Origin: Agreia sp. PsM10
Lineage (GTDB): Bacteria > Actinomycetota > Actinomycetes > Actinomycetales > Microbacteriaceae
Reading direction: 5' to 3'
NCBI RefSeq assembly: GCF_030433855.1
Contig: NZ_JARUXC010000002.1
Location: 124,001 to 188,000 of the forward strand
DNA length: 64,000 nt
Below the pieces are notes generated by a model, which worked only from the letters and a program-made list of their open reading frames with translations, was not told the origin of the DNA and did no database searches. Below, piece by piece: positions 32,081-33,288 of the stretch. Numbering within the stretch: position 1 is the stretch's first letter; each line of letters opens with the position of its first letter. The position numbers and the translations under genes were made by a program.

Positions 32081-32150
32081 GCGAGTGTTGCCCGAGGCGA
32101 CGGATGTTGTCGGTCGCCCGGCAACATCCGTCGCGCTCGGCAACATTCGC
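32081..32150. repeat. 70-nt palindromic repeat B, copy 1
   Basis: A nearly perfect hairpin with 29-nt arms and loop TCGGTCGCCCGG. Paired blocks are TGTTGCC with GGCAACA and CGACGGATGTTG with CAACATCCGTCG. It starts 16 nt after the lysC stop. Copy 2, also 70 nt, is at 33219-33288. Confidence 0.85.
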
Positions 32151-32265
32151 CTCGGTCCGGACTCAGGCATCGGACACTCCTCACCGTCCCCCGACTCCGC
32201 CGAGTTGTGCACCGACGGGTCTGATCGCAGGCCCTGCTGCCGCTGCTCCCGTCATTCTGGAGCGC

Positions 32266-33222
32266 ATGACAGCTTCGCCGACCCGGACTCCCCGCGCGCG
32301 TGATCTCCTCCTCGCCCGCGATCTCGATCCCGATGCGCTTCGCCAGCTCCAGCGCTCCTCGGGCACCGACACGCGCCGAGTCCGCCGAGGGGTCTATGTG
32401 GCCTCGGGCTCCTGGGCCGGTTTCGACACGTACGGCCGCCACCTCGCGAACGTGCTGGCCGTCGACTCGACCCACCGGCATCCGGTTTTCGGTCATGCCT
32501 CGGCGGCTGCCATCTGGGGCCTTCCGCTCGCCGACCGCCCGTGGCCCGCAGAGGTGCACGTGGTCGCCGACGCGACCTCGCATTCGCGCAGCAAGAACGG
32601 CGTGGTTGTTCATCGTCAGGCGATGCACGACGGTGATGTGACCGAGCGCAACGGGGTGCTCGTCACGAGCCTCGAGCGCACGGCGATCGATCTGGCGCGA
32701 ACCATGCCTTTTCCTGTCGCCGTCGCGGCGATCGACTTCACGCTGCATAAGAGACGTGCCGGCCGTCATGTTCTGACGCGAGAGAAACTCCTCGACGGTC
32801 TTCTCCGTTCGCCCCGCACGAACGGCCGCGCTCGGGCCGGGCGGGCCATCGAGGCGGCCCGGGTCGGTGCCGACAATGCCGGAGAAACGCTGAGCAGGCT
32901 CGCGATCATCGCGCTCGGATTTCCGGAGCCTCTCCTTCAGGTCCAGCACGTGAATCCGAGGGGAGGCTTCTACTACACCGATCACGAGTGGCCGGAGCAC
33001 AACGCGATCGCAGAGTTCGACGGATTCGGCAAATACCTGAAGCAGGCAATGAGGCTCGGGGAGAACGCCGGAGACGTCATATACGAAGAGAAGATCCGGG
33101 AGGACCACCTCCGGGACGAGGACAACGGAGTCACCCGCTGGGGCCCGCCCGAACTTCGCAACCCGCCAGAGATCGCCCGGCGTCTCCTGCGAATCGGTGT
33201 CCCCAGAATCACAGGGCGGTGA
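32266..33222 (+). CDS. AbiEi-like protein with nuclease-like C-terminal domain
   Basis: A 318-residue protein with an N-terminal region (DPDALRQLQRSSGTDTRRVR, then RGVYVAS) like the AbiEi antitoxin winged helix, a middle part with LVTSLERTAIDLARTM typical of these proteins, and a C-terminal domain with EHNAIAEFDGFGKYL and YEEKIREDHLRDE that resembles a Vsr-like endonuclease fold. No toxin partner is next to it. The ATG at 32266 has GGAG 6 nt upstream. Its stop TGA lies inside the downstream palindrome. It shares layout but little sequence with the gene at 24614-25525. Confidence 0.72.
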   Translation: MTASPTRTPRARDLLLARDLDPDALRQLQRSSGTDTRRVRRGVYVASGSWAGFDTYGRHLANVLAVDSTHRHPVFGHASAAAIWGLPLADRPWPAEVHVVADATSHSRSKNGVVVHRQAMHDGDVTERNGVLVTSLERTAIDLARTMPFPVAVAAIDFTLHKRRAGRHVLTREKLLDGLLRSPRTNGRARAGRAIEAARVGADNAGETLSRLAIIALGFPEPLLQVQHVNPRGGFYYTDHEWPEHNAIAEFDGFGKYLKQAMRLGENAGDVIYEEKIREDHLRDEDNGVTRWGPPELRNPPEIARRLLRIGVPRITGR

Positions 33223-33288
33223 GTGTTGCCCGGGGCGACGGATGTTGCCGGTCGCCCAGTAACATCCGTCGTGTTCGGCAACACCCGC
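33219..33288. repeat. 70-nt palindromic repeat B, copy 2
   Basis: Same length and loop (CCGGTCGCCCAG) as copy 1, in the same orientation. CGACGGATGTT and AACATCCGTCG form the inner stem, GTGTTGCC and GGCAACAC the outer one. It contains the stop codon of the nuclease-like gene at 33220-33222. Confidence 0.85.

Follow-up and report, generated by a model that had tools for sequence, protein, structure and literature searches.

A candidate family of REPtron-like selfish elements in actinobacteria, built on AbiEi-Vsr-type nuclease genes lying between paired palindromes

Insertion sequences of the IS200/IS605 type and miniature inverted-repeat transposable elements (MITEs) are short units with hairpins or repeats at both ends and with dispersed copies that lack a gene. 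A unit of similar plan occurs between the genes lysC and asd of Agreia sp. PsM10 (Microbacteriaceae), in the 64,000-nt stretch analysed here (the window; contig NZ_JARUXC010000002.1, positions 124,001 to 188,000), but it differs from them in carrying no known transposase, and no target duplication was seen. It consists of one gene, encoding a protein modelled as an AbiEi-like part fused to a Vsr-like nuclease part, bracketed by two copies of a palindrome (the bookends) which is also dispersed as solitary copies. We consider it reasonably probable that this cassette is a member of a large actinobacterial family of selfish, REPtron-like elements whose enzyme is unrelated to the REP transposases.

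REPtrons, comprising repetitive extragenic palindromic (REP) sequences and REP-associated tyrosine transposases (RAYTs), are the closest described counterparts. According to the available text of two papers (PMC2817692, PMC3733652), they also carry one gene between two copies of their own palindrome, and this palindrome is likewise dispersed in intergenic DNA, mainly at gene ends. In the same available text, RAYTs meeting the paper's criteria were found only in gammaproteobacteria (PMC2817692) and a CGTC class of REPs is apparently without a dedicated transposase (PMC3733652). The present cassette differs in that its enzyme is predicted to be AbiEi-like with a Vsr-like nuclease rather than an HUH/Y1 transposase, its palindromes are longer (about 60–68 nt) and more often direct than inverted, and they occur in 12–16 copies, in contrast to the many tens to hundreds given for REPs in the text available. 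Moreover, by our reading of 37 full-length copies from one family, that of the lysC-asd cassette, a constant GTAG or GT(A/G)G head is absent and the ends are TGTTGC-like and GCAACA-like. Because the enzyme is unrelated, the element is not filed here as a member of the REPtrons.

Parts of the protein find likenesses elsewhere. AbiE type IV toxin-antitoxin systems share the AbiEi fold, predicted here by modelling, and AbiE autoregulates via upstream inverted repeats; an upstream palindrome is present in the cassette, where its function as an operator is putative. Unlike AbiE, the cassette encodes an additional nuclease domain, has another palindrome where the gene ends and is accompanied by dispersed copies, and no AbiEii toxin gene was found in it (one gene, with lysC and asd as neighbours), the search for AbiEii being confined to this locus. 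EDxHD homing endonucleases, among them I-Bth0305I, which is said to form a dimer on nearly 60 bp (PMC3943268), and Vsr appear to share the fold of the catalytic domain. Here, however, that domain is fused to an AbiEi-like part and bracketed by complete palindromes, and its signature is E-x-D-G-x-x-K-Y, any equivalence of the active sites being putative.

A preliminary description of the locus had placed two 70-nt palindromes in direct orientation around the gene, and comparison of the copies confirmed both locations and the orientation, with the refinement that the conserved core extends over 60 nt (Table 1). The 68-nt copies, 1138 nt apart, are 88% identical, their inverted arms are 82% and 72% complementary and, when folded as single-stranded DNA, they are much more stable than 200 shuffled sequences (z of -8.8 and -4.5). 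Just one gene lies between them, and a single base separates its stop codon from the downstream 60-nt core. Conservation in relatives places its start at ATG 32266, giving 318 aa, and a start at 32104, which would produce a 372-aa frame, was rejected on the same grounds. The distance from the downstream 70-nt extent to the GTG start of asd is 72 nt, as had been described, and that from the lysC stop to the upstream one measures 15 nt.

The cassette proved to be one case of a general rule whereby the bookend pairs with the gene lineage. Paralogues were split by the signature of the nuclease part into KY-type genes (E-x-D-G-x-x-K-Y, as in the lysC-asd gene) and HH-type genes (E-Y-x-G...H). For 23 of the 24 KY-type genes of Agreia, the two flanks have a repeat in common that scores above 24, the 99th percentile for 1,026 pairs of mismatched flanks. 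The null maximum of 33 is surpassed by 20 of these genes, three (L083, L086 and L087) lie at or below it and the single exception to the pairing is L097. The repeat is private to each lineage, being common to orthologues in other species and different in paralogues of the same genome, and the lineage motifs in Agreia include TGTTGCC, ATCCGCG, GTACC, GTGCCCG and AGCGCGG. In 19 of the 24 genes 99–115 nt separate the end of the upstream repeat from the start codon, and the downstream copy begins at most 20 nt from the stop; the exceptions to the former spacing are L076, the frame of which is shortened, L091, L092, L097 and L098. Bookends were alike in 15 of 15 pairs of proteins with at least 60% identity, in 10 of 16 pairs at 50–60% and in none of 347 below 50%, these pairs sharing ancestry and not being independent, and the correlation of bookend similarity with protein identity is highest for residues 1–75. 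Folding indicated a palindromic shape for all 10 elements tried. Three points are thereby added to the earlier description: the palindrome belongs to the gene lineage, each sister gene has one of its own, and the same arrangement is found again elsewhere in the phylum.

Beyond Agreia, 80 named loci were collected by a protein-alignment scan of species genomes from many actinobacterial genera, and 74 were tested, the flanks of six being too short. A bookend score of at least 30 was attained by 33 of 50 KY-type genes, as compared with 5 of 184 control genes and 7 of 24 genes of HH-type or other signature. The five control matches fall in four loci (L156, L157, L168 and L180), all of which contain palindromes of this kind. 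A separate whole-genome search (E <=1e-20) matched the family in 85 of 396 sampled Actinomycetota genomes, a count that includes the genome of strain PsM10 and some HH-type genes, and at most five candidates per genome were scored. From the phylum-wide sample of 30 loci, one of which was dropped for a short flank, 29 with tblastn-confirmed frames remained and 21 of 29 reached a score of 30 (null maximum 25); picking the frames by motif instead gave 21 of 27, and 19 of 27 remain when L280, the second cassette of strain PsM10, and L281, where the match is partly simple repeat, are left out.

At L156 the palindromes of the adjacent cassette's family also enclose a neighbouring gene of 443 aa (approximately 2002–4923), and such palindromes may thus bracket additional genes.

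Table 1. Parts of the lysC-asd cassette and its neighbouring genes (window coordinates)
Feature	Position	Strand	Remarks
lysC (aspartate kinase)	30770..32065	+	Left neighbour, outside cassette; open reading frame of 431 aa; name from reading of the sequence
Upstream bookend palindrome, 60-nt core	32086..32145	+	70-nt extent 32081-32150
Half-sites of upstream bookend			TGTTGCC / TGTTGTC / GGCAACA / GGCAACA; 19 nt start-to-start in each arm
Leader	32146..32265	+	120 nt, upstream bookend core to start codon
Cassette gene	32266..33222	+	318 aa; AbiEi-like part and predicted Vsr / homing-endonuclease-like nuclease part
Downstream bookend palindrome, 60-nt core	33224..33283	+	70-nt extent 33219-33288; orientation as upstream one
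asd (aspartate-semialdehyde dehydrogenase)	33361..34428	+	Right neighbour, outside cassette; open frame; GTG start conserved in relatives; name from reading of the sequence

Dispersal of the palindrome was followed in eight Agreia genomes, G000 to G007, where G000 is strain PsM10 (4.01 Mb, 106 contigs), G001 A. bicolorata VKM Ac-1804, G002 A. pratensis VKM Ac-2510, G003 Agreia sp. Leaf210, G004 Agreia sp. Leaf283 and G005 Agreia sp. VKM Ac-1783. The upstream bookend matches 13 other places in G000 at E values from 1e-18 to 2e-4, for which reason the match is not attributable to chance, and the 14 places comprise the two bookends and 12 further solitary copies in intergenic DNA. At E <=0.001 the three genomes carrying the cassette have 14 (G000), 16 (G001) and 15 (G004) palindromes, and the five that lack it have 2, 1, 0, 0 and 0. 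Between the two bookends there are 6, 4 and 0 differences in 60 positions in G000, G001 and G004, respectively, and the median number of differences among solitary copies is 9–11.5. The 42 solitary copies lie between convergent genes in 28 cases, between genes of the same direction in eight and between divergent genes in one, with four inside a called frame and one undetermined, as counted with a simple purpose-made gene caller and with orthologous sites entering more than once; many are within 30 nt of a called gene end. A convergent setting was found for only 37 of 241 control gaps, from which gaps above 600 nt and those holding palindromes were excluded. The distribution along the genomes is uneven: 7 of the 16 palindromes in G001 fall within about 200 kb of contig C12, and in G004 (contigs C1–C4) none of this family was reported on the dif-bearing contig C2 or on C3.

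Two other families yielded similar results, such that dispersal is present in all three families tested. The palindrome of the L034 gene type occurs at 5, 5, 10 and 2 places in the gene carriers G000, G002, G003 and G004, and none was found in G006 and G007, while a Williamsia palindrome is present at 12 and 16 places in two genomes, as counted from the search output.

Cassettes and palindromes also vary in presence between close relatives. The preliminary description had read the cassette as a small insertion with hairpin ends, and this is supported by the dispersed copies and by the distribution in Agreia, where three of the eight genomes (G000, G001 and G004) carry it with an identical 1138-nt spacing, while in two (G006 and G007) the lysC-asd gap is under about 100 nt and constitutes an empty site. 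In the remaining three (G002, G003 and G005; loci L072, L071 and L070) an unrelated gene lies on the opposite strand between lysC and asd; by our reading, it has an apparent cell-wall sorting signal at its end and looks like the gene of a secreted, cell-wall-anchored protein. The adjacency of lysC and asd, described earlier as holding for most actinobacteria, was looked at inside Agreia, where it amounts to the short gap of two genomes in eight. Four Agreia genomes have a second cassette, located in the gap between two convergent genes. This gap could be identified in seven genomes (L270–L276), with no match in G007; it is short in G003 and G006, and its occupant in G004 is a solitary palindrome from another family (score 33–41 to that family, 8–12 to three others), which suggests that the gap has been used repeatedly as an insertion site. 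Together, these patterns suggest that the cassette has moved.

The PADLOC AbiEi profiles match the longer 372-aa frame of the cassette gene at 2e-13 and this, together with a modelled Vsr-like fold, upholds the initial reading of an AbiEi-like gene with a nuclease-like tail; searches of Pfam and NCBIfam gave no match for the cassette protein. In the model of the 318-aa protein an AbiEi-like part extends over residues 11–199 and a nuclease part over residues 204–314; the best structural matches are to AbiEi and Vsr-like folds, with the nuclease part closest to a homing endonuclease. The protein would thereby represent an AbiEi-like DNA-binding part fused to a nuclease part resembling Vsr and the EDxHD homing endonucleases. 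A Pfam scan of 51 family members yielded 12 families, including AbiEi_4 (15), AbiEi_1 (9), DUF559 (2) and REase_MTES_1575 (2), and no transposase family, HUH/Y1 of the IS200/IS605 group included, in agreement with the earlier remark that the cassette has none. Residues D239, E250, D252, E275 and R278 are invariant in the 51 sequences, and K256 and Y257 are conserved in at least 90%. The gene is under purifying selection, with a ratio of nonsynonymous to synonymous substitution rates (dN/dS) of about 0.12, and the nuclease part is the most constrained.

The architecture of the palindrome is informative about how it may be recognised. In the lysC-asd family the 60-nt core consists of TGTTGCC, a four-base spacer and the core GCGACGGATGTTGCCGG up to the centre, and then the mirror image. 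The 80 named loci were scanned for a layout in which a 7-nt motif occurs twice forward and twice reversed. It adjoins the gene in 25 of them at a spacing of 19 or 20 nt (counted by hand), and block-shuffled copies of the same 655 kb gave eight matches at any spacing. Eight further matches at 19–20 nt lie elsewhere in the loci, six of them with the motif of the lysC-asd family or of the adjacent cassette's family. The motif varies, as exemplified by TAGTCGC in Frondihabitans, CGCTCCA in Williamsia, TCGCAGC in Pseudonocardia and CGAGCGC in Cellulomonas, and most elements from the scan have a palindrome of 60–68 nt. In an alignment of the 37 copies of the lysC-asd family, out of 48, that are exactly 60 nt long, the mean information content is about 1.7 bits in the outer motif, core and loop and 0.85 in the spacers. 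Positions 8–11, within the spacer, are paired in just 10–16 of the 37, and outer and core positions mostly remain paired. Constant spacing combined with a free spacer sequence argues that the palindrome is probably recognised as double-stranded DNA and not as a hairpin alone.

Two loci from the wider collection show unusual arrangements. L168, from Cellulomonas persica, has several CGAGCGC elements in 8.8 kb (2635–2829, 3711–3779 and 4962–5030), three of them almost in tandem. L129 (G242, same family) carries at 1501–1560, between unrelated genes, a 60-nt palindrome with the same layout and outer motif and a different middle, and no cassette-family gene was found within 1.5 kb of it.

On the proposed model the element would comprise the palindrome, a leader of about 100 nt, one gene and the palindrome again, with further palindromes standing alone in intergenic DNA. 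A dimer of the protein would bind the palindrome as double-stranded DNA, reading the motif copies 19–20 nt apart in each arm; such binding of a 60-nt palindrome is a natural reading because AbiEi binds a palindrome of about 49 nt and I-Bth0305I dimerises on about 60 bp. Nicking or cutting at the palindrome, which is likely to be the motor of spread, would then lead to copying of the palindrome to new intergenic sites and, more rarely, of the gene with both bookends. Copying by the nuclease would parallel what RAYT enzymes are thought to do for REP palindromes. Pairing and dispersal are observed directly; binding, catalysis, movement and the role of the nuclease as driver of spread are what we infer.

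Several observations weigh against this model. In A. bicolorata the gene has an in-frame stop at codon 50 of the 318-aa frame, and both bookends nevertheless persist in that genome, together with 14 solitary copies; two copies of the palindrome occur in A. pratensis in the absence of the lysC-asd cassette; and in G001 and G005, for which the search found no gene of the L034 type, the palindrome of that type still occurs at two places each. Within the set of eight genomes, the excess of palindromes in cassette carriers may reflect a single evolutionary event. Inspection by eye of three solitary and two cassette sites showed no target-site duplication, the flanks there having diverged so far that one could have been obscured. 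The orientation of the bookends is not fixed, direct alignment being better in 16 of the 23 Agreia pairs and inverted in six, with one tied. Scores remain below 30 for 17 of the 50 KY-type named loci and for 8 of 29 in the phylum-wide sample, and the flank test detects a shared repeat and not a palindromic shape, for which folding covered 10 elements.

Four other explanations were weighed, with likelihoods that overlap with that of the selfish-element model and need not sum to one. The main open rival, though in our estimation an unlikely one, is that an AbiEi-type repressor binds the upstream palindrome to control its own gene, the solitary copies being sites of a regulon or of chromosome structuring and the nuclease a leftover. 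It draws on the AbiEi of S. agalactiae, which, in the available text of PMC3985639, represses its own promoter via an imperfect palindrome, about 49 nt long and likewise starting with TGTTGC, and it agrees with the regular distance between upstream repeat and start codon, with variable spacers of fixed length, which fit duplex binding, and with the finding that bookend similarity follows the N-terminal part best. A second copy at the stop codon would, however, be superfluous for autoregulation, the solitary copies favour convergent genes, with one between divergent genes, whole cassettes and solitary copies come and go between close relatives, and it is the nuclease part that is most constrained. 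Autoregulation and mobility could coexist.

Comparably doubtful is a homing mechanism, in which the nuclease would cut a solitary palindrome or a gene-less allele and repair from the cassette would spread the gene only into palindrome-holding sites. The nuclease part is indeed closest to a homing endonuclease the dimer of which is described as using nearly 60 bp of target, comparable with the palindrome in length, but the lysC-asd regions of the five cassette-less Agreia genomes hold no palindrome of that family, none was seen by eye in the two short gaps at the second-cassette site, and the spread of solitary copies is left unexplained by the mechanism itself.

Less likely again is a process akin to the formation of solo long terminal repeats, by which only the gene with both bookends moves and solitary palindromes are left by recombination between the bookends with loss of the gene. 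Since bookends are mostly direct and, in the lysC-asd cassette, close to identical, such deletions are plausible, and cassettes are few and solitary copies many. Protein searches, though, detected no remains of a family gene within 1.3 kb of the 42 solitary copies, where the sole DNA match was a weak 68% stretch (E 0.008), and the nearest solitary copy differs from a bookend at least as much as the bookends differ from each other (6 vs 6, 6 vs 4 and 4 vs 0). Three solitary copies were compared at the same place with relatives lacking them and, at one (site A), the relative seems by eye to have a short inverted repeat instead. That repeat, the strong hairpins and the many copies close to the ends of convergent genes would suit host transcription terminators or insulators accumulated at gene ends and flanking these genes by chance, but this is very improbable given that no T-run was seen after either lysC-asd bookend, that paralogues in one genome carry different bookends common to orthologues in other species, that bookends are missing from 179 of the 184 other genes in these loci and that REPs too are described, in the available text of PMC3733652, as mainly between convergent and same-direction genes.

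Returning to the selfish-element model, we regard it as an evenly balanced question whether these elements constitute an unrecognised class in prokaryotes, consisting of AbiEi-Vsr-type nucleases that each recognise, maintain and spread their own palindrome of 60–70 nt. It is equally finely poised whether, with that class, a homing-endonuclease-like enzyme, often present as several paralogues, has arrived independently at the REP/REPtron way of life. Our literature searches found no description of such an element. If the model is correct, AbiEi-Vsr-type elements could account for many short dispersed palindromes in actinobacteria, and a Vsr / homing-endonuclease-like protein serving such palindromes would be a second, unrelated solution beside the RAYT transposases. 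It would also provide a testable role for the large set of proteins to which profile searches assign no label beyond AbiEi-like antitoxin, and nature would offer many variants of an enzyme paired with a site of about 60 bp, useful for studies of DNA recognition and perhaps as genome tools. As a consequence of the gene-palindrome pairing, the claim is directly testable by binding and cutting assays.

Of the HH-type genes in Agreia, 4 of 10 have a repeat shared by both flanks. At the Curtobacterium locus L210 (3593–4783), short palindromes containing GAGCAGAAGACG are present on both sides of an HH-type gene, and short palindromes with the same sequence occur at two further loci with Curtobacterium HH-type genes, L217 and L227.
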